Shown: one piece after another, positions 16,837 through 28,750 of the stretch | Layout: each line of letters opens with the position of its first letter | Position numbering within the stretch: position 1 is the stretch's first letter | DNA from: an uncultured Flavonifractor sp. | GTDB taxonomy: Bacteria > Bacillota > Clostridia > Oscillospirales > Oscillospiraceae | Length of the DNA stretch: 36,106 nucleotides | Direction of reading: 5' to 3' | Assembly: GCF_944387675.1 (NCBI RefSeq) | Contig: NZ_CALXFV010000009.1 | Coordinates: 1-36,106 of the forward strand | Made by a program: the position numbers and the translations under genes | Notes under the pieces: generated by a model | What the model was told of the DNA's origin: nothing | Seen by the model: only the letters and a program-made list of their open reading frames with translations | Database searches by the model: none

Positions 16837-18861
16837 TTACTTCTTCTCAATGCTCACCGTCACGGTGTAGTCGCCGATCAGCACATTGAGCGCGTCGGGC
16901 AGGCCGTTCACGGGGATCAGATCCGCCACATTGCCGCGGCCCATATTGGTCAGAAGCTCCACCAGCTTCTGGGCCATGGCGCTGTAGCTGTCGTCATCCA
17001 GGGTGACCGTGGCGGTCGCCAGAGTCACGCTTTCCTTGCCGTACAGCACGCCGTCCTTGTCGGCCAGGAAGCTGGCCAGGCTGTCATCGTACGTATATTT
17101 GACCTTGTAACCCTCGGTGTTCTTGTTGTCCAGGCGGTCCAGATAGCTCTGATAGAAGTCCGCGTCCTTATCCAGCACCTTCCAGAAGGCAACCGCACCG
17201 TTTACATTGCTCTCAACCAGGCTCGTATAGTCCGCGGCATCCTTGATCTTCAAGGTGCCATTCCCGGGATTGGTCACAAACTTGTCGGGGCTGTTCACAG
17301 CGTACAGAGCCTCGACCTTCTCCCGCTCAGCCTCGTTCAGGGTTACGCCCAGCTTCTCCTCCACCTTGGAGATGGCCTTGTCCAGGGTCTCCGGATCCTC
17401 GTACTTCGTAACCGCCTTCCGGTAATAGGCGCCCAGATTCACGTCGGTCATCACCATAACGGGCTTCTGCTCGGGCAGAACCACAGGCTGGCCGGCGGGC
17501 GTGTTGTTTACTACTTTCTGAATCTCCAACAGCTCCGTCTGATAGTCGCCAACCGCGGTCTTAATGGCAGTGGGGGTCATGCCTTCAACGGCCTGCTCCA
17601 GAGCAGCATTTCCGGCCACGTACTCGTTCAGCTTGGTCTCAATCTCCTCGTCAGTCCAGACGTTGACTACCTCATTGGCCTTCTCAATCAGCTTGTTCAG
17701 AGCAGCCACATCGGTCTCGGTCAGGGTCACGTTGCCGCCCTTCTGGAGCTTCTCTACCAGGTTCTCCAGATCAGCCTGGCTTACAGTGGTACGGCTGTTG
17801 CCGTTGTCGCTGTTCAGAGTGGCCAGATTCACGGCCACCTTCATGGAGATCACACCAGCCTTGGTGACGGTAATCTCTACCGTCTGGTCGTTCACGGTCT
17901 GGGTGGTGGTTCTGTCCTTGGCCAGGACCTTGCCCAGGGCAAAGTCAATGGCGTTGAACAGCGCAGTCTTGTTTTCTCCGCTGATCATGTCAGTGGCAAT
18001 CTGTTCCAGGGTCACGTCGTCTTCGGCAGACTCCATGGAGTAGCTGGCCAGCAGGTTCAGCGTCTTGTTGTCTGTGGCGTCGGACTTGGTCACCAGATCC
18101 GCCTTTACCAGATAGGTAACAGGACTCTCAGAGGGCTCCGTGGAGGGAGTAGGAGTGGGAGTGGGTGTGGGAGTGGGCTGGTCGCCACCACCACCGCCAC
18201 TGCTACCGCCGCCGCCACCCTTGACCATCCAGCTCAGGCGGGAGATCACAGCGGCCACCTCGGCACGGGTAGAGGTATCCAGAGGCTTAAAGTAACCCTT
18301 GTCGTTGCCCTCAATCAGGCCCCAGGCCCGGCAGTTCTTCACCGCGGTCACCGCGTAATCGCTGACATCCGCCGCGTCGGGGAAGGTCTCATTGGAACCG
18401 GCCTTCTCATGGGTCTTGTTATAGGTCTTCTCATAATAGGTGATGTACCGGTCCATGATCACGCACATCTGCTCACGGGTAATCGACGCCTCGGGGTTAA
18501 AGAGGTTGCCGCCGATGCCGTTGATGATCTCGTGCTCCGCGGCCCACTTCACCGCGTCGGTGTACCAAGTGTCCTCCGGCACATCCAGGAAGGTGGGCGC
18601 ATCCTTGCTGGGCTTGGCGTCCTCCAGACGGGCCAGCACGGTGACAAACATGGCACGGGTCATGTTCTCCTCAGGCGCAAACAGATCGCCGCTGATACCA
18701 ACCATGTACTCCTTCTCGGAGACATAGTCTACGTACTCATAGTACCAGTCCGTCTGTTTTACGTCCTTAAACACCTCGACGTCCACAGCCGCCACGGTGC
18801 CGAGGATGGTGGAACTCAGCAGGGCTACTGCCAAGCACACCGACAGGATCTTCTTCTTCAC
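16837..18861 (-). CDS. Large secreted SLH-domain protein, probable abundant surface protein
   Basis: A 674-residue exported protein. It has a signal peptide (residues 1-25, MKKKILSVCLAVALLSSTIL with an AxA-type end). Three SLH repeats follow: about 30-78 (FKDVKQTDWYYEYVDYVSE), about 90-140 (FLDVPEDTWYTDAVKWAAE) and about 160-213 (RAEVAAVISRLSW). Next is a very flexible linker of two Gly runs and a (PT)5-type stretch (about 216-245). The final 430 residues are rich in Asp, Val, Thr, Lys and Ala, lack cysteine, and match no family I recognise. GGAGA lies about 9 nt before the ATG. The strong promoter and long leader suggest high expression, as for S-layer proteins; that is inference. Confidence 0.88.
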   Translation of the reverse strand: MKKKILSVCLAVALLSSTILGTVAAVDVEVFKDVKQTDWYYEYVDYVSEKEYMVGISGDLFAPEENMTRAMFVTVLARLEDAKPSKDAPTFLDVPEDTWYTDAVKWAAEHEIINGIGGNLFNPEASITREQMCVIMDRYITYYEKTYNKTHEKAGSNETFPDAADVSDYAVTAVKNCRAWGLIEGNDKGYFKPLDTSTRAEVAAVISRLSWMVKGGGGGSSGGGGGDQPTPTPTPTPTPSTEPSESPVTYLVKADLVTKSDATDNKTLNLLASYSMESAEDDVTLEQIATDMISGENKTALFNAIDFALGKVLAKDRTTTQTVNDQTVEITVTKAGVISMKVAVNLATLNSDNGNSRTTVSQADLENLVEKLQKGGNVTLTETDVAALNKLIEKANEVVNVWTDEEIETKLNEYVAGNAALEQAVEGMTPTAIKTAVGDYQTELLEIQKVVNNTPAGQPVVLPEQKPVMVMTDVNLGAYYRKAVTKYEDPETLDKAISKVEEKLGVTLNEAEREKVEALYAVNSPDKFVTNPGNGTLKIKDAADYTSLVESNVNGAVAFWKVLDKDADFYQSYLDRLDNKNTEGYKVKYTYDDSLASFLADKDGVLYGKESVTLATATVTLDDDSYSAMAQKLVELLTNMGRGNVADLIPVNGLPDALNVLIGDYTVTVSIEKK

Positions 18862-19053
18862 GTTAACATCTCCTTCTTATTCCCCAATTTTATTTGTTCT
18901 TCCTTGTATTGATACGGCTCTGCAAAGCACGCGGCCGCTGCCCGATGCTCCGCTGGCCTTGGCACTCATCTCCTTTTCCGCCCACGGTCGGCAGATTTTC
19001 CGGTGTGGACGCTTTGTCGACCGCCAAGGCGGTATGCACCGACACTTTCTATG
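18862..19053 (-). promoter_or_regulatory. Long structured 5' leader of the SLH gene, candidate cis-regulatory RNA
   Basis: From the predicted start (about 19047) to the ATG is about 185 nt, unusually long and GC-rich. Several helices can be drawn: 19020-19025 with 19028-19033 (ACCGCC/GGCGGT) enclosed by 19001-19005 with 19037-19041, and 18988-18994 with 18938-18945 (one bulge). I could not match it to the c-di-GMP-I, c-di-AMP (ydaO) or cobalamin riboswitch consensus as I remember them. Confidence 0.4.
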
Positions 19054-19082
19054 ATGATACCAAACCTGCGCTCAAATATCAA
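19054..19082 (-). promoter_or_regulatory. Strong sigma-A promoter of the large SLH gene
   Basis: On the minus strand: TTGATA (19082-19077), a 17-bp spacer, TATCAT (19059-19054). An A-rich tract (about 19084-19099) directly upstream of the -35 box looks like an UP element. Confidence 0.8.
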
Positions 19083-19120
19083 GCAATTTTTCTTTTTTTA
19101 CACGATCTGGTATAATCAAT

Positions 19121-19675
19121 TTACTCAGGATCATTCAGCCGCACCAGATGAAGGTGGTCCTCCCACCGGTCGTTGATCCTCAAATAGTGCCTGGACAAGC
19201 CCTCCTCCTCATATCCTGCCTTCTCCGCCGCCCGGCGGGAGGCCAGATTCCGGGGCATGATGTTGGCCTCGATCCGATGAAGGCCCAGCACCCGAAAGCC
19301 CCAGCCGGTAACCGCCTCAATGGCCTCGCTGCCGTAGCCCCGGCCCCAGAGGGCGGCATCCACTTTATAGGAGAGAAAGCAGGACTGGAAGGCCCCCCGG
19401 ACAATTTCGTTCAGGCCCACCAAACCCACCACCTTTCCCGGCTGCCCGGGCCGCACCAGAAGGAAGCGAAAGCTGCGCCCCGCCTCCGCCTGCGCCAGGT
19501 CCCGGCTCAGCCGTTCCCGCTGCCCCCCGGCGGAGAAAAATTCCTCCGGCTGCACCGGGTCGAAGGGGGCAAACGCCGCCCGATTCCGGCGGTAAAAAGC
19601 GGCTGCCGCCTCCGCCAGGGCCGGCTGGGCGGCCAGGTAGTACAGGCGGGCGGAGCGGAATACATAGCGCACCAT
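19121..19675 (-). CDS. GNAT-family N-acetyltransferase (RimJ/RimL-like)
   Basis: A 184-residue acetyltransferase of the GNAT fold, which moves acetyl from acetyl-CoA to an amine. The RimJ/RimL-type pattern is clear: GKVVGLVGLNEIVRG strand pair, YKVDAALWGRGYGSEAI with the acetyl-CoA pyrophosphate loop (GRGYGSEA), HRIEANIMPRNLASRRAAEKAGYEEEG, and a closing strand with HLHLVRL. The substrate may be a ribosomal-protein N-terminus, an amino acid or a small amine; sequence does not tell. ATG 19673-19675 is chosen; GTG at 19687 or 19672 are alternatives, the latter with better ribosome-site spacing. It is a single gene with its own promoter, upstream of the SLH promoter. Confidence 0.88.
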   Translation of the reverse strand: MVRYVFRSARLYYLAAQPALAEAAAAFYRRNRAAFAPFDPVQPEEFFSAGGQRERLSRDLAQAEAGRSFRFLLVRPGQPGKVVGLVGLNEIVRGAFQSCFLSYKVDAALWGRGYGSEAIEAVTGWGFRVLGLHRIEANIMPRNLASRRAAEKAGYEEEGLSRHYLRINDRWEDHLHLVRLNDPE

Positions 19676-19707
19676 CTTCCTCCACACCTCTCCAGCCGGT
19701 TTTTTGT

Positions 19708-19736
19708 ATTATAACACAGTGTTTTGCTCTTTGCAC
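19708..19736 (-). promoter_or_regulatory. Promoter for the GNAT gene
   Basis: On the minus strand, GTGCAA (19736-19731), a 17-bp spacer and a perfect TATAAT (19713-19708). The -35 box is weak. Confidence 0.6.
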
Positions 19737-19799
19737 TCCCTAATTTTTTCCGCTCCGCCGCCTTTCGCCGTATTGGGAGAAATCCAGGGGGGTTAGGGG

Positions 19800-19829
19800 T
19801 TGACAGTGCCGGAACAAGCGCGCTATACT
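19800..19829 (+). promoter_or_regulatory. Sigma-A promoter of the six-gene surface-acylation operon
   Basis: Perfect TTGACA (19800-19805), an 18-bp spacer and TATACT (19824-19829). The predicted start is near 19836, giving a leader of about 94 nt before ATG 19930. No other promoter of this quality is seen until 26190. Confidence 0.82.
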
Positions 19830-19929
19830 GACCAAGGCAGAGGAAACTCTGCCTGTTTTGCTATACCTTTTTTACGCCGTCCTCCGTCCGGCACGGCGTA
19901 TATCAATCAAGAGAAAGAAGAGAAGAAAC

Positions 19930-21237
19930 ATGGTGGAAGGGCAAACGCATTCCGTCCGCTCCGGCCGGCGCAGGCCGCCCCCGCTTTGGCTGGCCGCCGG
20001 CCTGTGCGTCCTGGTGGCGCTGCTTCTGGGAATCGCCGCCCTGACCCGCAGCCCGGCCTCTGCGCCGGAGCACGCTTCCCTTATCTCAGACACCCCCGAG
20101 GCAGTCCAAGATACCCAGCCGCCGGTGATCTCCGGCGCTCGGGATCTGACGGTGGCGGTGGGAGAGAGCGTCGCCTACCGCGCCGGGGTCTCTGTCAGCG
20201 ACGACGTGGATGAGGACGTCCCGCTCCAGGTGGACGCCGGCGGAGTCAACCTGTCGGTACCCGGGGAATACCAGGCCCTCTACTGGGCGGAGGACACCGC
20301 CGGCAACCGGGCGGAGGTATCTGTCACCGTCACGGTGGTGGAGACCGTCACCGTAGACGACGAGAGCACCGGCGAGACCGAGGACGTGGTGGAGGCGGAC
20401 AGCACCGAGATCACCCTGGAGCTGGTAAATGAGCTGGCGGATGAGATCCTGGCCGACATCACCAACGTCTCCATGAGCCAGCGGGAAAAGGCCCTGGCCA
20501 TTTACAACTACGTCCATAACAACATGAACTATATCGGCACCTCCGACAAGTCCAGCTGGCTGGTGGGGGCATATGTGGGCTTCACCCGCCGCAGCGGGGA
20601 CTGCTACAACTACTTTGCCTGCTCCAAGGCCCTGCTCACCCGGGCTGGGATTCCCAACGTGGATCTGACCCGGGTGGGAGGCAACTCCCGCCACTACTGG
20701 CAGCTGGTGGACGTGGGGAGCGGCTACTACCACTTTGACGCCTGTCCCCACCCCAACAGCTACCCGCTGTACTCCTTCCTGCTCACCGAGGCGGAGGTGC
20801 AGGCCTACACCCAGCAGTGCAGCAGCATTCGCAAGAATTATTATGTCTACGACTACGACGCCTGTCCGGTAGAGGTGGTGCAGGGCAGCGCCCCGGTGAC
20901 CCCCGCACCCAAGCCGACCGCTGCTCCCACTCCCGTGCCGGAGGCCACGCCCACCGGGACGGCCTTGCCGGAGATCACGGCCACGGCCTCTCCGGAGGTC
21001 TCCCCCACCCTGACCCCCGCGCCGGAGGTCACGCCCACCGCCTCTCCCGCAATCACCCAAACCCCTGTGGTGACGGAGAGCCCGGCGGCCAGCGCTACTC
21101 CCGCCCCCTCGGCCTCCGCCGGACCGGAGGCCAGCCCCAGCCCGGCCCCTACCCCTCTCCCGCCGGCGGAGACCGGCACAGTTGAGACACCGGCCATGAC
21201 ACCGGAGAATCCGGAGGATACCGCAAGTGCAGCGTAA
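19930..21237 (+). CDS. Membrane-anchored transglutaminase-like protein with Ig-like domain and Pro/Thr-rich tail
   Basis: A 435-residue protein. It has a basic N-end and one membrane anchor (about 18-39), an Ig-like domain of the DUF5011 type (about 63-140: TQPPVISGARDLTVAVGESV to DTAGNRAEVSVTV), a linker with many acidic residues (about 142-160), and a transglutaminase-like domain (about 165-315) with the full triad: Cys225 in SGDCYNYF, His255 in SRHYWQLVD, Asp270 in YHFDAC. The last 115 residues are a low-complexity Pro/Thr/Ala/Ser/Glu tail suited to crossing the wall or carrying glycans. The domain probably faces outside and acts as a protease, amidase or crosslinker. The start ATG 19930 has a weak ribosome site. 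The stop overlaps the next gene by 11 nt. Confidence 0.85.
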   Translation: MVEGQTHSVRSGRRRPPPLWLAAGLCVLVALLLGIAALTRSPASAPEHASLISDTPEAVQDTQPPVISGARDLTVAVGESVAYRAGVSVSDDVDEDVPLQVDAGGVNLSVPGEYQALYWAEDTAGNRAEVSVTVTVVETVTVDDESTGETEDVVEADSTEITLELVNELADEILADITNVSMSQREKALAIYNYVHNNMNYIGTSDKSSWLVGAYVGFTRRSGDCYNYFACSKALLTRAGIPNVDLTRVGGNSRHYWQLVDVGSGYYHFDACPHPNSYPLYSFLLTEAEVQAYTQQCSSIRKNYYVYDYDACPVEVVQGSAPVTPAPKPTAAPTPVPEATPTGTALPEITATASPEVSPTLTPAPEVTPTASPAITQTPVVTESPAASATPAPSASAGPEASPSPAPTPLPPAETGTVETPAMTPENPEDTASAA

Positions 21238-22726
21238 CGTATTGGAATATCTGGAGGCCACCGCCCCCCGGCTGCCGGACAAGGTGGCCTTCACCAACGG
21301 CACCGACAGCCTCACCTTTTCCCAGCTCTCCCGAGCGGCCCGGGGCATCGGCACCTGGCTGGCGGGCCAGGGGCTGCGTCATGAGCCGGTGGTGGTGTTT
21401 ATGGAGAAGCATCCCCACTCCATCGCCGCCTTCTTCGGAGTGGTGTACGCCGGGTGCTTCTACGTCCCCATTGACGAGGAGATGCCTCCCTACCGGGTGG
21501 AGCTTATCTTCCAGACCCTGCGCCCCCGGGCGGTGCTGTGCGACGCAAAGACCCGCCCCCAGGCGGAGGCCCTGGGCTACGGGGGCATTTTGTGTCATTA
21601 TGAGGACGCGGCGGAGACAGAGCCGGACGACGGCGTTCTCGCCGCCATCCGGGCCGGGCAGCTGGACACCGACCCGCTGTACATCGTCTTCACTTCCGGC
21701 TCCACCGGGGTACCCAAGGGAGTGGTAGCCTGCCACCGGTCGGTGATCGACTACATTGAGCAGCTCTCCGCCACCCTGGGCTTCTCCCAGGAGACGGTGT
21801 TCGGCAACCAGACTCCCCTGTACTTTGACGCCTGTCTGAAGGAGCTCTACCCCACCATCAAGTTCGGTGCCACCACCTATTTGATTCCCAAGGGGCTGTT
21901 CCTCTTCCCCATCAAGCTGGTGGAGTATCTCAACCAGTATAAAATCAACACCGTGTGCTGGGTGGTGTCCGCCCTCACCATGATCTCCGGCCTGCGGGTA
22001 CTGGAGAAGCACGTGCCGGAGCACCTCCACACCATCGCCTTCGGCAGCGAGGTGTTCCCCATCCGGCAGTTCCAGCTGTGGCGGCAGGCCCTGCCCCATG
22101 CCAGCTTCACCAACCTGTACGGTCCCACCGAGGCCACGGGCATGAGCTGTTACTACCATGTGGAGCGGGACTTCGGCCCCGACGAGGTGATCCCCATCGG
22201 CCGGCCCTTTCCCAACACCGGCATTTTACTGCTCACCGAGGACAACCGGGAAGCCGCTCCCGGGGAGCTGGGGGAGATCTGCATCAAGGGTACCTGCCTC
22301 ACCATGGGCTATTACCGGATGCAGTCAAAGACGGCGGAGTGCTTTGTGCAGAATCCGCTGAACGACGCCTATCCCGAGCTTATTTACCGCACCGGCGATT
22401 TGGGCCGGTACAATGAGCGGGGGGAGCTGGTGTTCGTCTCCCGGAAGGACTTTCAGATTAAGCACATGGGCCACCGCATTGAATTGCAGGAGATTGAAGT
22501 GGTGGCCGCCATGCACCCCGAGACGGCCCAGGCCTGCGCGGTGTACGACGGGGCGAAGGATAAAATCTGTCTCTACTACACCGGTACGGCGGAGCCGGCC
22601 CGGCTCACCGCCTTTTTAAAGGAGAAGCTGCCCAGATACATGCTGCCCAACCGGCTGGAACGTCTGGACAGAATGCCCCTCACCCCCAACGGCAAGGTGG
22701 ACCGGAAGGCGTTGGCGGCAAATTAA
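21227..22726 (+). CDS. AMP-forming adenylation enzyme, DltA-like
   Basis: A 499-residue acyl-adenylating enzyme of the ANL superfamily. It should activate a carboxylic or amino acid with ATP and load it on the carrier encoded next. Core motifs are intact: FTSGSTGVPKGV (about 155-166), YFDACLKELYP (199-209), NLYGPTE (296-302), YRTGDLG (387-393), and PNGKVDR with catalytic Lys490. The whole layout is that of DltA/NRPS A domains: Asp201 in FDAC sits where these bind the substrate amine, which suggests an amino acid, but other pocket residues do not look like DltA. Start GTG 21227 with GGAGG 10 nt upstream; it overlaps the transglutaminase-like gene by 11 nt. The substrate is unknown. Confidence 0.88.
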   Translation: MQRNVLEYLEATAPRLPDKVAFTNGTDSLTFSQLSRAARGIGTWLAGQGLRHEPVVVFMEKHPHSIAAFFGVVYAGCFYVPIDEEMPPYRVELIFQTLRPRAVLCDAKTRPQAEALGYGGILCHYEDAAETEPDDGVLAAIRAGQLDTDPLYIVFTSGSTGVPKGVVACHRSVIDYIEQLSATLGFSQETVFGNQTPLYFDACLKELYPTIKFGATTYLIPKGLFLFPIKLVEYLNQYKINTVCWVVSALTMISGLRVLEKHVPEHLHTIAFGSEVFPIRQFQLWRQALPHASFTNLYGPTEATGMSCYYHVERDFGPDEVIPIGRPFPNTGILLLTEDNREAAPGELGEICIKGTCLTMGYYRMQSKTAECFVQNPLNDAYPELIYRTGDLGRYNERGELVFVSRKDFQIKHMGHRIELQEIEVVAAMHPETAQACAVYDGAKDKICLYYTGTAEPARLTAFLKEKLPRYMLPNRLERLDRMPLTPNGKVDRKALAAN

Positions 22727-22749
22727 GAAGAATAAAGGAGCGTTGCATC

Positions 22750-22977
22750 ATGGAAGAACTGCTGGACATTCTCAAGGAGCTCCACCCCGACGTGGACTTC
22801 GAGCACTGCACCACCCTCATTGACGACAAGATTCTGGACTCCATCGACATTGTCTCCCTGGTGGCGGAGATTAACGACGCCTTTGACGTGGCGGTACCCG
22901 CCGAGGAGATTGTGCCGGAAAACTTCAACTCCGCTCAGGCCCTGTGGGAGATGATCCAGCGGCTGGATGAGGCGTAA
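22750..22977 (+). CDS. Acyl/aminoacyl carrier protein, DltC-like
   Basis: A 75-residue acidic, four-helix carrier protein with the phosphopantetheine attachment site at Ser31 in DKILDSIDIVSLV (DSID in place of the common DSLD). It would receive the group activated by the upstream adenylation enzyme and hand it to the MBOAT protein. GGAG lies 10 nt before ATG. It lies 23 bp after the adenylation gene and 9 bp before the MBOAT gene. Length and charge fit DltC (about 78 residues) better than the longer fatty-acid ACP, and the neighbours decide the assignment. Confidence 0.88.
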   Translation: MEELLDILKELHPDVDFEHCTTLIDDKILDSIDIVSLVAEINDAFDVAVPAEEIVPENFNSAQALWEMIQRLDEA

Positions 22978-22986
22978 GCACGACCC

Positions 22987-24579
22987 ATGAGTTTTGCGTC
23001 TGCACAATTCCTGGGCTTTTTCGCGGTGCTCTTTCTTCTGTACTATCTCATCCCCAGGCGGCACCAGTGGAAGCTGCTGCTTTTGGGCAGTCTGTTCTTC
23101 TACTACTTCGCCGGATGGTACTGCCTCATTTACATCGGCGCCACCACCGTCACCACCTATCTGGCGGCCCGGAAGGTGGGGGCTCTCCAGCAGGAGCAGT
23201 ACGCCTGGCTGAAGGAGCACCGCTCCCAGCTGGACAAGGAGCAGCGCAAGGCCTGCAAGGCCGCCGGGAAGAAGGTGCGCTGGCGGTGGACCCTGGCCTG
23301 CCTGCTGGTGAACTTCGGCATTCTGGCGGTGGTGAAATACACCGACTTCGTGCTGGGCAACGTCAACGGCGTTCTCTCCGCCTTCGGCTCTGCCGCCCGG
23401 CTGCCCATGGCCGGTCTGGTGCTACCCATGGGCATTTCCTTCTATACCTTTCAGGCCATGGGCTACCTGATCGACGTATACTGGGGCAAGTATCCCCCGG
23501 AGCGCAGTCTGGGCAAGTTTGCCCTGTTCGTCACCTTCTTCCCCCAGCTCATTCAGGGTCCCATCAGCCGGTTCTCCGATCTGAGCCAGAGCCTGTACAG
23601 CGAGCACCGCTGGAACTCCCGGCAGATTGCCATGGGAGGCATGCGGGTGTTGTGGGGTCTGGCCAAAAAGCTCATTGTGGCCGACCGGCTGGCCATTCCC
23701 CTGCGGGAGCTGGTGGCCGCCCCGGAGGCATATACCGGGGTGTACGTACTGGCGGTGATGTTCCTCTACGCCGTGCAGCTGTACGCCGACTTCACCGGCG
23801 GCATCGACATCACCATCGGCGTGTCCCAGATGCTGGGCGTCCAGGTCACCGAGAACTTTGAGCGGCCCTTCTTCTCCAAGAACATCGCCGAGTACTGGCG
23901 GCGCTGGCACATCACCATGGGGACCTGGTTTCGGGACTACGTGTTCTATCCCCTGTCGGTGAGCAAGAGCGTGCTGAAGCTCCACCAGAAGGCGCGGGCC
24001 AAGCTGGGGGAGCCGGGCAAGCGGGTGTCTGTGTACCTGTGTACCATGCTGCTGTGGTTTGTCACCGGCGTGTGGCACGGGGCCAGCTGGAACTTCATCG
24101 TCTGGGGCCTGCTCAACGGGGTGGTCATCCTGGTCTCCCAGGAGTGCGAGCCCCTGTACGCCCGCTTCCACGGGCGCTTCCCCGGGCTGAAGGGTACCTT
24201 CGGCTACCGGCTGTTTGAGGTGGGCCGCACCTTTGTGCTGATGAGCGCCATCCGGGTGCTGGACGTGTACCGGGACGTACCCCTCACCTTCCGGCAGGTT
24301 GGCACCGTCTTTACCGCCTTCCGCCCCTCGGTGCTGTGGGACGGCTCCTTCCTGGCGCTGGGCCTCACCGGGGCGGACTGGCTTGTGGCAGCCCTCGGCA
24401 CCCTGACCATGCTGGCCTGTTCCCTGCTGGGCCGCCGGGAGCCCGTGCGGCAGCGGCTGGTCCGCCGCAACCCCAACCTGGCCTGGGGCGGCTGCGCGGC
24501 GCTGGTGGTGTGCATGGTCATCTTCGGCATCTACGGCATCGGTTTTGACGCCACCCAATTCATTTACAACCAGTTCTGA
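22987..24579 (+). CDS. MBOAT-family membrane O-acyltransferase, DltB/AlgI-like
   Basis: A 530-residue polytopic membrane protein of the MBOAT family, which moves an acyl or aminoacyl group across the membrane onto an extracellular acceptor. It starts MSFASAQFLGFFAVLFLLYY, typical of AlgI-type members, and has about ten hydrophobic segments. The signature EYWRRWHITMGTWFRDYVFYPL contains His308, and the catalytic His364 lies in GVWHGASWNFIVWG; both are present. An Arg/Lys-rich cytoplasmic loop at about 60-100 is longer than usual. At 530 residues it is longer than typical DltB (about 400) and closer to AlgI/PatA-type acyltransferases. It lies between the carrier and the SGNH-like gene. Confidence 0.9.
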   Translation: MSFASAQFLGFFAVLFLLYYLIPRRHQWKLLLLGSLFFYYFAGWYCLIYIGATTVTTYLAARKVGALQQEQYAWLKEHRSQLDKEQRKACKAAGKKVRWRWTLACLLVNFGILAVVKYTDFVLGNVNGVLSAFGSAARLPMAGLVLPMGISFYTFQAMGYLIDVYWGKYPPERSLGKFALFVTFFPQLIQGPISRFSDLSQSLYSEHRWNSRQIAMGGMRVLWGLAKKLIVADRLAIPLRELVAAPEAYTGVYVLAVMFLYAVQLYADFTGGIDITIGVSQMLGVQVTENFERPFFSKNIAEYWRRWHITMGTWFRDYVFYPLSVSKSVLKLHQKARAKLGEPGKRVSVYLCTMLLWFVTGVWHGASWNFIVWGLLNGVVILVSQECEPLYARFHGRFPGLKGTFGYRLFEVGRTFVLMSAIRVLDVYRDVPLTFRQVGTVFTAFRPSVLWDGSFLALGLTGADWLVAALGTLTMLACSLLGRREPVRQRLVRRNPNLAWGGCAALVVCMVIFGIYGIGFDATQFIYNQF

Positions 24580-24590
24580 GGAGGCCGGAG

Positions 24591-25652
24591 ATGAAAAAGA
24601 AGCTGATTTTCACCGGCGTCCTCTGGTGCGTTCTGCTGGCCCTGGCCCTGTGGCTGCTCAACGCCCTGTTCCTGCCCAAATACATGAGTGAGATCCCCGA
24701 GGGAGCCCTGATTGCCGAGTATTACGACGAGACCGCCGACCACGACGTGGTCTTTATCGGCGACTGCGAGGTGTACGAGAACTTCTCCCCCGACGTGCTG
24801 TGGCGGGAGTACGGCATCACCAGCTACATCCGCGGCTCGGCCCAGCAGCTCATCTGGCAGTCCTATTACCTGATGGAGGAGACTCTGAAGTACGAGACTC
24901 CCAAAGTCATGGTGTTCAACGTGCTGAGCATGCAGTACGGGGAGCCCCAGAGCGAGGCCTACAACCGCCTCAACCTGGACGGGATGCGCCTCTCCCCCCA
25001 GAAGCTGGCGGCGGTACAGGCCTCCATGACCGAGGAGGAGAGCATGCTCTCCTACCTCTTCCCCCTGCTGCGCTACCACACCCGCTGGGATGAGCTGACG
25101 CAGGAGGACGTGGAGTACCTGTTCCACCGGGACCAGGTGTCGGACAGCGGTTACCTGATGAATGTGGAGGTCCGCCCGGCGGAGAATGTACCCGAGGGCA
25201 AGCCCCTGGCAAACTACCAGTTTGCCGACATCTGCTACGACTACCTGGACAAGATGGTGGAGCTGTGCCAGGCCCACGGGGTGGAGCTGGTGCTGGTGAA
25301 GGCCCCCAGCCTGTACCCCTACTGGTACGAGGAGTGGGAGGCGCAGATGGAGGATTATGCCGCCGCCCACGATCTCCAGTACGTCAACTGCCTGGAGGTC
25401 ATTGATGAGGCGGGGCTGGACTTTTCTACCGACACCTACGACCACGGCCTGCACCTGAACCTGTACGGGGCGGAGAAGTTGGCCCGCTGGTTCGGGGCAT
25501 GGCTCACCGAGCACTGTCCCCAGGTGGCCGACCGCCGGAGGCAGGCGCCCTATGAGAGCATCTGGGCGGAGAAGAGCGCAATCTATGCCCAGCGGAAAAT
25601 TCAACTGGAGGCGGCCTGGGCCGCCGAACAAAAGGAGGATACCACGGAATGA
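24591..25652 (+). CDS. Membrane-anchored SGNH-like protein with Cys at the nucleophile position (DltD-like role)
   Basis: A 353-residue protein with one N-terminal membrane anchor (about 5-27) and a soluble domain outside. The order of elements is that of SGNH/GDSL proteins: strand VVFIGDCEVYENF with GDC at 57-59 where GDS is usual, a Gly/Asn pair at GSAQQ (82-86) and VFNVLSMQYG (Asn110), and a C-terminal D..H block DTYDHGLHLN at 281-290 (Asp284, His285, His288). Such proteins follow MBOAT genes in acylation systems, as DltD follows DltB, and finish transfer or act as esterase. Here Cys59 replaces the catalytic Ser. GGAGG lies 5 nt upstream. It overlaps the next gene by 4 nt. Function is inferred from context. 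Confidence 0.75.
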   Translation: MKKKLIFTGVLWCVLLALALWLLNALFLPKYMSEIPEGALIAEYYDETADHDVVFIGDCEVYENFSPDVLWREYGITSYIRGSAQQLIWQSYYLMEETLKYETPKVMVFNVLSMQYGEPQSEAYNRLNLDGMRLSPQKLAAVQASMTEEESMLSYLFPLLRYHTRWDELTQEDVEYLFHRDQVSDSGYLMNVEVRPAENVPEGKPLANYQFADICYDYLDKMVELCQAHGVELVLVKAPSLYPYWYEEWEAQMEDYAAAHDLQYVNCLEVIDEAGLDFSTDTYDHGLHLNLYGAEKLARWFGAWLTEHCPQVADRRRQAPYESIWAEKSAIYAQRKIQLEAAWAAEQKEDTTE

Positions 25653-26182
25653 AACGCAAACTCTCTGCGCTGGCCCTTGCTCTGGGCCTGGTCCTGTCCC
25701 TGGCCGCCTGCGGCAGCGGCGGCGACGCCCCCGCCGGCGGCAGCTCCACCGACCCGCAGCAGAACACCCAGACCGGCGGGGAGGCCGCCGCCTTCACCTT
25801 TGTTCCCGCCGACGGCAAGGAGGTGGCGGTAAACGCCGACATGGCCGACGTGCTGGCCCAGCTGGGGGCGGAGCAGAGCTACTTTGAGGCCGAGTCCTGC
25901 GCCTTCGAGGGTCTGGACAAGACCTACACCTATCCCGGATTCGTCATCACCACCCGGCCTGACGGGGAGAATGATTATGTCAACTCCATTCGTCTTACCG
26001 ACGACACCGTATCCACTCAGGAGGGGGTGTACATCGGCAGCAGTGAGGCCGAGGTTATCACCGCCTACGGCGAGAGTACCAGCGACACCGAGGGACTGCT
26101 CACCTATACCGCCGGAGACGTAATTCTCAGCTTCCTTCTGGAGGATGGAGTGGTCACCTCCATTGAGTATTTCCCCGCGTAA
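25649..26182 (+). CDS. Lipoprotein of unknown function
   Basis: A 177-residue exported lipoprotein. The signal peptide ends in the lipobox LAAC (Cys21), and a Gly/Ser/Thr-rich tether follows (about 22-48). The folded part (about 50-177) is strand-rich, with GVYIGSSEAEVITAYGES near the C-end, a pattern seen in small BamE-like or DUF4309-like lipoproteins of Firmicutes. I do not recognise a precise family. Its ATG overlaps the SGNH gene stop (ATGA), and AAGGAGG is 12 nt upstream, so it is translated with the acylation genes. A lipoprotein with the DltX-like role of helping the transfer step is possible but unproven. Confidence 0.8.
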   Translation: MKRKLSALALALGLVLSLAACGSGGDAPAGGSSTDPQQNTQTGGEAAAFTFVPADGKEVAVNADMADVLAQLGAEQSYFEAESCAFEGLDKTYTYPGFVITTRPDGENDYVNSIRLTDDTVSTQEGVYIGSSEAEVITAYGESTSDTEGLLTYTAGDVILSFLLEDGVVTSIEYFPA

Positions 26183-26189
26183 AGCGGGG

Positions 26190-26218
26190 TTGACCCGCCC
26201 GCCGGTTTCCGGTACAAT
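26190..26218 (+). promoter_or_regulatory. Sigma-A promoter for pcrA
   Basis: TTGACC (26190-26195), a 17-bp spacer and TACAAT (26213-26218). The predicted start is near 26225. A small 6-bp hairpin (26173-26178 with 26184-26189) overlaps the stop of the lipoprotein gene just before it. Confidence 0.8.
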
Positions 26219-26235
26219 AGCATTACAAACCAAAA

Positions 26236-26261
26236 GGAGCCGTCCATTCGTGGGCGGCTCC
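26236..26261 (+). repeat. Stable hairpin with TTCG loop in the pcrA leader
   Basis: An 11-bp stem (26236-26246 with 26251-26261, one G-T pair) with a TTCG tetraloop, near the 5' end of the predicted pcrA mRNA. No T run follows, so it is more likely an mRNA-stabilising or translation-affecting structure than a terminator. Confidence 0.6.
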
Positions 26262-26290
26262 GCCATTGCCAAGGGAGAACGGAAGATACT

Positions 26291-28750
26291 ATGCTGAACC
26301 GAGAGGAAGAACTGCGCTTCTGCAAGGCCCGCCGGGCGGCCATTGAGCTGGAGTTCCAGAACCTGAACAGCCAGCAGCGCCGGGCGGTGCTGGCCACGGA
26401 GGGTCCCCTGCTGCTGCTGGCCGGCGCGGGCAGCGGCAAGACCACGGTGCTCATCCACCGCATTGCCAACCTGATGAAGTACGGACGGGGATCCGATTTT
26501 GACCAGGCCCCCGACTGGGTGACCCCGGCCGATTTGGCCTTTCTGGAGGACTATGCGGCCCATCCGGACCCGGCCAAAAAGCCGGAGCAGGAGCGGCTGT
26601 GCGCCATGGACCCGGCGGTACCCTGGTCCATCATTGCCATCACCTTTACCAACAAGGCCGCCGGGGAGCTGAAGGGGCGGCTGGAGCGGCTGCTGGGTCC
26701 CGTCGCCAACGACATCTGGGCCTCCACCTTCCACTCCGCCTGCGTGCGTATCCTGCGGCGGGATATCGATCGGCTGGGCTTCTCCTCCTCCTTCACCATC
26801 TACGACACCGCCGACTCCGAGCGGGTCATCAAGGACATTGTGAAGGACTTTAACCTGGATGACAAGACCTTCTCCCCCCGCACCGTACTGGGGTACATCT
26901 CCCGGGCCAAGGATGCCATGCTCTCCGGGGCGGATTATCTGGCCCAGCGGGAGAAAGAGGGAGATTTCCGGCTGGTGAAGATCGCCAAGCTCTATGTGGA
27001 GTATGAGCGGCGGCTGAAGGAGGCCAACGCCCTGGATTTCGACGACATCATCCTGGACACGGTGCGGCTGCTCCAGCAGTTTGAGGACGTGCGGAACTAC
27101 TATCACCGGAAGTTCCGGTATGTGCTCATCGACGAGTACCAGGACACCAATCACCTTCAGTATCTGCTGGCCTCCACCCTGGCGGGTGGGTATGAGAACA
27201 TCTGCGTGGTGGGGGACGACGACCAGTCCATCTACCGCTTCCGGGGGGCCACCATCGAGAATATCCTCTCCTTCGAGAGCCAGTACAAGGGAGCCAGGGT
27301 CATCCGGCTGGAGCAGAACTACCGCTCCACCAAAAATATTCTGGAGGCCTCCAACGCCGTCATCCGCAACAACGAGGGCCGCAAAGGCAAGGAGCTGTGG
27401 ACCGACCACGGCGTGGGGGACAAGGTCCAGTGCTACACCGCCACCAACGAGCACGAGGAGGCCCAGTACGTGGCCGCCCAGATCCTGGCGGACTACTCCG
27501 CGGGCCGTCCGTGGAAGGACCACGCGGTGCTCTACCGGATGAACGCCCAGTCCAACCAGCTGGAGCAGGCCTTCAAGCGCAACGGCATCCCCTACCGCAT
27601 CATCGGGGGCATCCGCTTCTTCGACCGGGCGGAGGTGAAGGACATGCTGTCCTACCTGTGCGTGGTGAATTACCCGGGGGACGATCTGCGCCTCACCCGC
27701 GTCATCAACAACCCGCCCCGGGGGATCGGGGCCTCCACCATTGATCGGGCCCAAGCCATCGCCCGGCAGGAGGGGCTCTCCCTGTGGGAGGTGGTGAGCC
27801 GGCCCCAGCAGTGGCCGGAGCTGCAGAAGGCCGCCCCCAGGCTGGGGCAGTTTGCCGAGCTGATTTCCGACTTGCAGCGGCTGGCCGGAGAACTCTCTCT
27901 CCCCGACTTCTACGAGGAGGTCATGCTCCGCACCGGCTACGCCGCCATGCTGGAGCAGAAACACACTGTGGAGGACCGCACCCGGCTGGAGAACGTGCGG
28001 GAGCTGCTCTCCTCCATCCAGAACTATCTGGACAACACGCTGGAGGAACCCTCTCTGGCGGGCTTCCTGGACGAGATCGCCCTCTATACCGACATCGACA
28101 GCCACGACCCCAGCGAGGACTGCGTGGTGATGATGACCATGCACTCGGCCAAGGGCCTGGAGTTCCCGGTGGTGTTCGTGGTGGGGGTGGAGGAGGGCAT
28201 CTTCCCCGGCATCCGGGCCATCGGGGAGCCGGAGGAGATGGAGGAGGAGCGTCGGCTGTGCTATGTGGCCATGACCCGGGCCAGGGAAAAGCTGCACATG
28301 ACCTGCGCCTGCCAGCGGATGCTCTTCGGCCGCACCAACTCCAACCGCCCCTCCCGCTTTTTGGGGGAGATCCCGGAGACGTATGTGGAGAAGTCGGGCC
28401 GCCTACCCTACGGCCAGCACCCCGCCGGGGAGGAGCGGCCCCAGCGGCCCCGGCCTCCCCGCCGCACCTTCGACCGGGGGTACTCCATGGGCAGCTCCGC
28501 TTACAGCACCGGCTCCTCCGCGCCGTCCGCCCCCGACTGGAAAAGCGCCGCCGCCGGGGCCGCGGCGCCCGCGCCCGGCACCGGCTTCCGGACGGGTGAC
28601 TCCGTGGTTCACAAGGCCTTCGGCAGGGGACTCATCACCAAGCTCACCCCCATGGGGGGCGACGCTCTGGTGGAGATTGCCTTCGACACCGTGGGTACCA
28701 AGAAACTGATGCTGAAGTCCGCCGCCCAGTATATGAAAAAGGCGGAATAA
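26291..28750 (+). CDS. pcrA: PcrA/UvrD-type superfamily 1 DNA helicase
   Basis: An 819-residue 3'-5' DNA helicase that removes RecA and helps repair and plasmid replication. All SF1A motifs are seen: Q motif LNSQQRRAV, motif I AGAGSGKT (44-51), Ia ITFTNKAAGE, II LIDEYQDTN, III VVGDDDQSIYRFRGA, IV EQNYRSTKNI, V MTMHSAKGLEFPVVFV, VI AMTRAREKLH. A segment of about 45 residues (about 63-110) between motifs I and Ia is an insertion compared with Bacillus PcrA. The C-end has a disordered Pro/Ala/Ser linker, then a Tudor-like domain (GDSVVHKAFGRGLITKL) that binds RNA polymerase in PcrA. It has its own promoter; ribosome site weak (GGAAG). It stops just before a shared terminator. Confidence 0.95.
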   Translation: MLNREEELRFCKARRAAIELEFQNLNSQQRRAVLATEGPLLLLAGAGSGKTTVLIHRIANLMKYGRGSDFDQAPDWVTPADLAFLEDYAAHPDPAKKPEQERLCAMDPAVPWSIIAITFTNKAAGELKGRLERLLGPVANDIWASTFHSACVRILRRDIDRLGFSSSFTIYDTADSERVIKDIVKDFNLDDKTFSPRTVLGYISRAKDAMLSGADYLAQREKEGDFRLVKIAKLYVEYERRLKEANALDFDDIILDTVRLLQQFEDVRNYYHRKFRYVLIDEYQDTNHLQYLLASTLAGGYENICVVGDDDQSIYRFRGATIENILSFESQYKGARVIRLEQNYRSTKNILEASNAVIRNNEGRKGKELWTDHGVGDKVQCYTATNEHEEAQYVAAQILADYSAGRPWKDHAVLYRMNAQSNQLEQAFKRNGIPYRIIGGIRFFDRAEVKDMLSYLCVVNYPGDDLRLTRVINNPPRGIGASTIDRAQAIARQEGLSLWEVVSRPQQWPELQKAAPRLGQFAELISDLQRLAGELSLPDFYEEVMLRTGYAAMLEQKHTVEDRTRLENVRELLSSIQNYLDNTLEEPSLAGFLDEIALYTDIDSHDPSEDCVVMMTMHSAKGLEFPVVFVVGVEEGIFPGIRAIGEPEEMEEERRLCYVAMTRAREKLHMTCACQRMLFGRTNSNRPSRFLGEIPETYVEKSGRLPYGQHPAGEERPQRPRPPRRTFDRGYSMGSSAYSTGSSAPSAPDWKSAAAGAAAPAPGTGFRTGDSVVHKAFGRGLITKLTPMGGDALVEIAFDTVGTKKLMLKSAAQYMKKAE

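Follow-up and report, generated by a model that had tools for sequence, protein, structure and literature searches.

Six co-directional genes in a contig from an uncultured Flavonifractor sp. (NZ_CALXFV010000009.1, positions 1 to 36,106; this whole stretch of 36,106 nucleotides is the window) probably encode a Dlt-like aminoacylation of a surface polymer with an acidic amino acid, D-aspartate being likeliest and glutamate next. We put the probability of this reading at roughly 60%. The cassette occupies positions 19930–26182 of the forward strand, with all six open reading frames (ORFs) present, and specifies in order a transglutaminase-like protein (TG), an adenylation enzyme (AD), a carrier protein (CP), an MBOAT (MB), an SGNH-like protein (SG), and a lipoprotein (LP). 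An acidic substrate for AD, D-Asp first, is suggested because a Lys or Arg stands at pocket position 239, because an aspartate-type racemase is linked to the adenylation gene, and because asparagine-synthase-type genes occur as neighbors. An earlier sequence-only reading of this DNA described the genes as packed, with gaps or overlaps of at most 24 bp, and the junctions agree (−11, 23, 9, 11, and −4 bp, minus marking overlap). Its proposal of a distinct pathway with dlt logic also stands, as the adenylation enzyme, carrier, and MBOAT all score under Dlt cut-offs, and so does its link to the transglutaminase-like gene; its Pro/Thr-rich protein as acceptor does not. The probable acidic amino acid and the tie between LP and SG are new here. 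No published description of the cassette was found in literature searches, judged from listings and abstract openings.

Conservation of the Gene Set

Two surveys supply the counts given below. The first set came from an MB-anchored scan and comprises the best 80 of at least 595 candidate loci; 42 of these hold the cassette whole or in part (L001–L043 minus L041, which was excluded from the core set for its 36% MBOAT identity and different AD code). The second was an SG search of 291 genomes drawn evenly across the class, the window's genome included. Matches at 1e-40 were found in 44 of them, and a gap separates 35 strong ones (1e-140 or better, the window's included) from nine weaker ones. 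One genome tallied as weak (G250) may be a true member: its match is the end of a truncated gene, and LP adjoins it. The 34 other strong-SG loci were mapped using profiles derived from the first set. Dropping the duplicates L126 (the same as L004) and L138 (the same as L005) gives a pooled set of 74 loci, and leaving out 24 with short flanks gives 50; the duplicates are still inside the strong-SG locus map, the AD alignment (identical sequences removed), and the counts of racemase–AD pairs and second-set SG.

Among the 50 loci with enough flank, SG is found in 50, TG in 49, MB in 45, CP in 42, AD in 41, and a racemase in 28; LP is found in 42 by best hit, or 44 counting two SG–LP fusions. All six families occur together in 33 of the 50. 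The commonest orders are TG-racemase-AD-CP-MB-SG-LP (12/74 loci) and the window's own TG-AD-CP-MB-SG-LP (7/74), and the gene order recurs in other genera, a recurrence that had been put forward as a check on the cassette. Within the window's genus, four of 20 genomes have SG; the other three share the identical six-gene order, and in G001 there is a copy cut by a contig end.

The Adenylation Enzyme and Its Probable Substrate

AD (21227–22726, +) is a stand-alone amino-acid adenylation enzyme of 499 aa that matches TIGR01733 over cut-off, along with the Pfam families AMP-binding and AMP-binding_C. Against the DltA models it reaches 253 of the 560 bits needed for TIGR01734 and 266 of 476 for NF003417. 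CP (22750–22977, +) is a 75-aa carrier over the cut-off of PF00550 (PP-binding) with its phosphopantetheine serine at Ser31, a residue present in 40/40 sequences of the first set; it too falls short of the DltC models, with 31.8 of 68 bits for NF003464 and 23.2 of 52.4 for TIGR01688. No DltA over the TIGR01734 cut-off, which might have served as a yardstick, was found among 20 relatives or among 119 phylum genomes. We used two DltA-like comparators instead, L175 (545 bits to TIGR01734) and L176 (477 bits, yet over NF003417).

Across the cassette enzymes the ten-position pocket code reads D-A-K-V-[IV]-F-L-G-M-K, with Ile at the variable position in the window. The pocket positions were set by motif, after GrsA. 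Asp235 and Lys517 are kept in the first set, and position 239, which is Lys205 of the window's AD, is Lys in 36/37. An alignment of 76 AD sequences (63 from cassettes and 13 comparators) has Lys at 239 in 60 of the 63, Arg in two (L130, L133), and His in one (L038). The position list and the roles of Asp235 and Lys517 appear in PMC12283262. The DltA-like comparators in the same alignment carry the codes DLLTFFLVAK and DLLTFFTVLK, and a clade of 62 cassette sequences (support 0.997) excludes both of them; grouping with DltA, which the sequence-only reading had named as the outcome that would make this an ordinary dlt variant, is thus not seen. On model scores, pocket code, and clade, an ordinary DltA identity was rejected. 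AD probably activates an acidic amino acid; its pocket code and the racemase argue against D-Ala.

Other adenylation genes were met along the way. A second dlt-like operon in the window's genome, on contigs C95 (L177) and C54 (L178), combines an MBOAT of 384 aa with a carrier-like ORF, a GNAT protein, and adenylation genes of code DNFVVFL..K, and four relatives (G001, G003, G008, and G009) have two adenylation genes in tandem. At four further loci (L160, L167, L180, and L041), stand-alone adenylation enzymes of different codes, DSKVIFIVDK and DVKAVF[LV]CNK, are encoded close to MBOAT or carrier genes; judging by these codes, they are perhaps further aminoacyl variants.

A Linked Racemase and Asparagine-Synthase-Type Genes

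The extra ORF seen in many loci is of the aspartate-racemase type. For the one sequence searched, the closest solved relative is the P. horikoshii aspartate racemase (1jfl, 3.6e-54), and all five cassette racemases tested are over the TIGR00035 cut-off (175–238 bits vs 93). Arg48 and both catalytic cysteines are present in 39/39 sequences and Lys164 in 38/39, the last having an X there; all four are key positions of the enzyme. Of 36 racemase–AD pairs, 28 have the racemase gene immediately before AD, at a spacing of −139 to 97 bp (27 distinct loci, since L138 repeats L005). By genome, a racemase is present in 24/27 strong-SG genomes of the AD type, 1/8 with SG and no adjoining AD, and 46/256 others (Fisher test, 1.4e-13 and 1.3e-4, relatedness ignored), so that it tracks the adenylation gene. 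AD itself was seen in 26 of the 27 (in G308 on another contig; the contig of G289 ends at SG), and two of the eight genomes have weaker AD relatives elsewhere. An asparagine-synthase-type (AsnB) gene comes after SG in L008, L029, L147, and L035 (in two frames in the last) and after MB in L030, a locus in which SG was not found; of these proteins, that of L147 was the one run against families.

Several observations weigh against the favored pathway. The full AD code equals none of the published codes looked at, and the AD of L038 has a different one (DVHVVFMYVK), the only node that connects it to the cassette clade being without support. Three of the 27 AD-type genomes (G053, G122, and G144) have no racemase at 1e-40. 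The cysteate-racemase model CuyB also passes its cut-off for four of five cassette racemases and for the racemase of the window's genome; for this last one, L020, and L036, its bit score is higher than that of TIGR00035. The window cassette is without a racemase; its genome has one elsewhere, on contig C140 (L116), flanked by an ATP-grasp-like ORF (a weak match) and a Mur-ligase-like ORF, and because the latter adjoins it, this racemase may serve peptidoglycan by supplying D-Asp. Cys-type SG, LP, and TG occur with no adjoining AD and CP in eight genomes, and also with no MB in five, so the cysteine is not tied to this donor. Finally, SG is found in none of the nine genomes of the window's genus with completeness of at least 90%.

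MBOAT and SGNH Protein

MB (22987–24579, +) is an MBOAT of 530 aa, over the cut-off of PF03062. Against the DltB model TIGR04091 it scores 160 of 375 bits and aligns only to residue 384. His308 and His364 are present in 43/43 sequences of the first set. The protein ends in a hexapeptide, FIYNQF in the window (with Tyr527) and FIY[NTS][QRK]F overall, whose Tyr is found in 41/41 sequences with letters there, two of the 43 being truncated. Its size and AlgI/PatA-type end agree with the earlier view that it lies nearer to those proteins. FXYXXF is given as an acyl-shuttle motif of MBOAT–SGNH systems in the portion of PMC12148441 that deals with them, and the same portion describes the pathways other than Dlt as having no carrier and using acyl-CoA as donor. 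Because a carrier and a fused FXYXXF shuttle occur together, the cassette is a hybrid of the carrier-fed and fused-shuttle types that this part of PMC12148441 keeps separate.

SG (24591–25652, +) is a membrane-anchored, SGNH-like protein, identified by model, Foldseek, and conservation. The model has a mean pLDDT of 90.3 and finds SGNH hydrolases and DltD at E-values of 2e-4 to 9e-4, alongside some designed proteins; TM-scores by query length are 0.34–0.41 (rows with E up to 0.001), which is a fold match only. The DltD structure 6pfx is matched at 9.1e-4 and PatB (7tlv) more weakly, at 6.2e-3, and a profile search of the PDB with SG gave no match. Neither SG nor LP reaches the cut-off of any Pfam or NCBIfam family, the best for SG being Lipase_GDSL_2 (23.4 vs 32.9 bits). 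Cys59, Asp284, and His288 occupy the positions of the SGNH triad. Where the SGNH superfamily has its block I Ser nucleophile SG has Cys59, and where DltD has a catalytic Ser SG has the same Cys and no DltD family match. The exchange of Cys for Ser, already noted from the sequence, is found in 39/40 of the first set (L024 has Ser), with Asp and His in all 39 with letters, and in 35/35 of the second set, window included. Among 13 ORFs of weaker SG homologs, most of them next to other MBOATs, reading by eye gave Ser in 11 (the position is not visible in two), so that Cys marks the SG group of the cassette. One locus, L169 (5578–10316), has four consecutive SGNH-like ORFs beside one MBOAT.

In one genus, five of seven sampled genomes (L152, L155, L157, L158, and L159) have a Cys-SGNH gene with LP and several TG genes and no AD, CP, or MBOAT adjoining; the other two have the full AD type. 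A glycosyltransferase-2-type gene lies directly before SG in those five (Pfam on two of the five).

Lipoprotein and Transglutaminase-Like Partners

LP (25649–26182, +; 177 aa) has a lipobox-like LAAC, two alpha-beta4 repeats, and a Cys84 that is invariant in an alignment of 27. With its model (mean pLDDT 84) no PDB entry reaches an E-value of 0.001 in Foldseek, the best being YjgB (DUF4309) at 1.5e-3, then YfeY and a putative beta-lactamase-inhibitor protein. LP is present in 33/35 strong-SG genomes vs 11/256 others, and in two genomes (L148 and L149) SG and LP are fused as one protein; these fusions tie the two together, and SG is likely the partner of LP. Of ten LP loci fetched from genomes without strong SG, six have an MBOAT (L186, L187, L188, L193, L194, and L195, the frame of L193 running into N) and four have none (L189–L192; the contig of L189 is short). 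Of five additional LP copies in SG genomes, four (L196, L197, L198, and L200) likewise show no MBOAT, and one (L199) has AD and TG. LP thus often goes with MBOAT–SGNH systems and is not confined to MBOAT loci. An apparent 2,305-aa MBOAT fusion at L193 was rejected as an artefact, since the MBOAT match stops at residue 321 and the frame continues into N/X bases.

TG (19930–21237, +) is a membrane-anchored protein of 435 aa with a bacterial Ig-like domain (PF16403, Bact_surface_Ig-like) and a transglutaminase-like core (PF01841, Transglut_core, 30.8 vs 23 bits), both over cut-off. The triad Cys225-His255-Asp270 is kept in the first set, Cys and His in 41/41 and Asp in 40/41. PDB searches with TG gave nothing, or matches confined to the part before the core. 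It had been asked whether TG is conserved with the other genes or a chance neighbor, and its presence at 49/50 loci speaks for a real link. TG is also kept at eight loci without AD and CP, five of them in one genus. At L176 (2396–3937), an LP-like lipoprotein and a transglutaminase-like protein lie directly before a true dlt operon, whose DltB and DltD are over the equivalog cut-offs and whose DltA is over one of two models. Because TG persists in the absence of AD and CP, LP is fused or linked to SG, and both precede the dlt operon of L176, TG and LP are likely a module of envelope aminoacylation.

The Pro/Thr-rich tail of the window's TG was a candidate for a conserved acceptor. By eye, only the window and L001 (whose tail is acidic) have a long tail after the core among 22 aligned TG sequences, and on this count the candidate was rejected, though the tail persists in the window's genus, where matches in four members reach residues 404–435; it is not conserved outside the genus. 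Recurring genes for synthesis of an acceptor were sought among the 14 commonest clusters (by first residues) of 488 neighboring ORFs at 74 loci, and only AsnB (five loci) and the glycosyltransferase (five loci, one genus) bear on the question. The window's genome has one sulfatase-family match, on contig C6 (L201), nearer to the phosphoglycerol transferase GacH than to LtaS.

Proposed Pathway and Alternatives

In the pathway that we infer, the substrate and its D form, the acyl-Tyr and Cys-thioester intermediates, the acceptor, and the role of TG are all proposals. The D-amino acid would come from an Asp-type racemase, encoded within the cassette in many relatives and outside it in the window's genome. 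AD and CP are recognizable by family, and AD would adenylate this amino acid and load it onto Ser31 of CP. By analogy with PatA and DltX, and with the residues in place, MB may then move the aminoacyl group across the membrane onto its own Tyr527. Cys59 of SG would take it as a thioester and pass it to an external hydroxyl or amine. From its association, LP would act together with SG and might present the acceptor; TG, as a second extracytoplasmic Cys-His-Asp protein, might move, link, or remove the aminoacyl group on the polymer.

The nearest rival, somewhat unlikely, overlaps with this pathway: glutamate, L or D, would be activated, the D form coming from MurI. The DAK that opens the AD code also opens that of the surfactin A1 domain (DAKDLGVV), assigned to Glu/Asp in PMC10548584, and the Asp code DLTKVGHI has its Lys at a different position. 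Yet the racemase that follows AD is of the aspartate/cysteate type, and MurI would presumably make a racemase partner needless for D-Glu.

A more elaborate form of the aspartate pathway is a long shot. A surface glycopolymer would be D-aspartylated through the thioester-forming SGNH protein, and TG would use the free beta-carboxyl of D-Asp for a second covalent bond (or move the aminoacyl group). In that case D-Asp might serve as a linker with two ends, cross-linking envelope polymers, with a charge effect opposite to that of D-alanylation, and the AsnB-like enzyme would mask the carboxyl in some species.

That AD activates D-Ala in a dlt variant that D-alanylates teichoic acid is improbable. 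The enzyme logic is alike, the SG fold resembles DltD, and LP-like and TG-like genes also stand ahead of the true dlt operon of L176; but AD, CP, and MB are far under the DltA, DltC, and DltB cut-offs, the DltA-like comparators have other codes and fall outside the cassette clade, and D-Ala requires no aspartate-type racemase. We give an equally small chance to a cassette that makes or exports a small aminoacylated molecule and leaves the envelope unmodified. Stand-alone adenylation and carrier proteins do occur in small-molecule pathways too. Against this, TG and LP have the look of exported proteins, the 14 commonest neighbor clusters include no conspicuous gene for small-molecule biosynthesis, and an MBOAT with a shuttle and a membrane-anchored SGNH protein is the arrangement of envelope acylation as outlined in PMC12148441, in its part on these systems. 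Least probable is a protein acceptor such as the Pro/Thr-rich TG itself, which is exported, adjacent, and in two or more copies at 12/50 loci, but whose triad is kept as for an enzyme and whose long tail is missing from 20/22 aligned sequences, while the glycosyltransferase before SG in five of seven genomes of one genus favors a glycan.

Upstream Region

A putative sigma-70-like promoter (TTGACA-18 nt-TATACT, 19800–19829, +; consensus scan, 11/12 matches) precedes TG; the scan found eight such sites within 19000–26400 vs 1.2 expected. Position 19800 was rejected as a gene start, being the first base of the TTGACA, and TG starts at 19930. Near the expected transcript start, a terminator-like scan marks a hairpin, AGGCAGAGGAAACTCTGCCT, followed by a T-rich stretch (19835–19854, +), one of nine matches in the region vs 5.0 expected; it is a possible attenuator of the cassette. 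Farther upstream, an SLH-domain surface protein (Pfam) is encoded on the opposite strand (16837–18861, −).

Implications and Comparison with Known Systems

Esterification with D-Ala lowers the negative charge of Gram-positive surfaces and gives protection from cationic peptides. If the aspartate reading is true, adding an acidic amino acid would reverse the effect of D-alanylation, or add a reactive carboxyl, and a cysteine-based transferase attaching such an amino acid would amount to a novel type of surface chemistry in some gut Clostridia. The Cys-SGNH gene of this pathway is found in 35 of the 291 class genomes, 26 of them seen with a cassette-type adenylation gene. TG and LP would be tied to envelope aminoacylation more widely, including one true dlt operon (L176).

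By its families, the cassette is of the MBOAT–SGNH envelope acylation kind, with a changed nucleophile. It resembles Dlt (DltA-DltC-DltX/DltB-DltD) in having an adenylation enzyme, carrier, MBOAT, and SGNH protein in one operon and an acyl-Tyr shuttle motif, and differs in its scores under the Dlt cut-offs, a shuttle that is part of the 530-aa MBOAT where Dlt has DltX, the Cys of SG, the Lys/Arg of the pocket, and the linked racemase. Because the defining models of DltA, DltB, DltC, and DltD are not matched, sequence comparison places it outside Dlt. PatA/PatB and AlgI/AlgJ-type O-acetyltransferases share an MBOAT with a fused C-terminal FXYXXF and a separate SGNH partner; they are described, in the part of PMC12148441 cited above, as using acyl-CoA and no carrier, whereas the cassette has an adenylation enzyme, a carrier, and Cys for Ser. 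AD is like the stand-alone adenylation domains of nonribosomal peptide synthetase type in TIGR01733 and in Asp235 and Lys517, and differs in lying beside an MBOAT–SGNH export pair, with no peptide synthetase line. The cassette racemases are like the aspartate racemase family (TIGR00035), with catalytic positions kept, while the gene is missing from the window cassette and four of five also pass CuyB. Taken by analogy, the cassette would work like Dlt in the cytoplasm and like PatA at the membrane.

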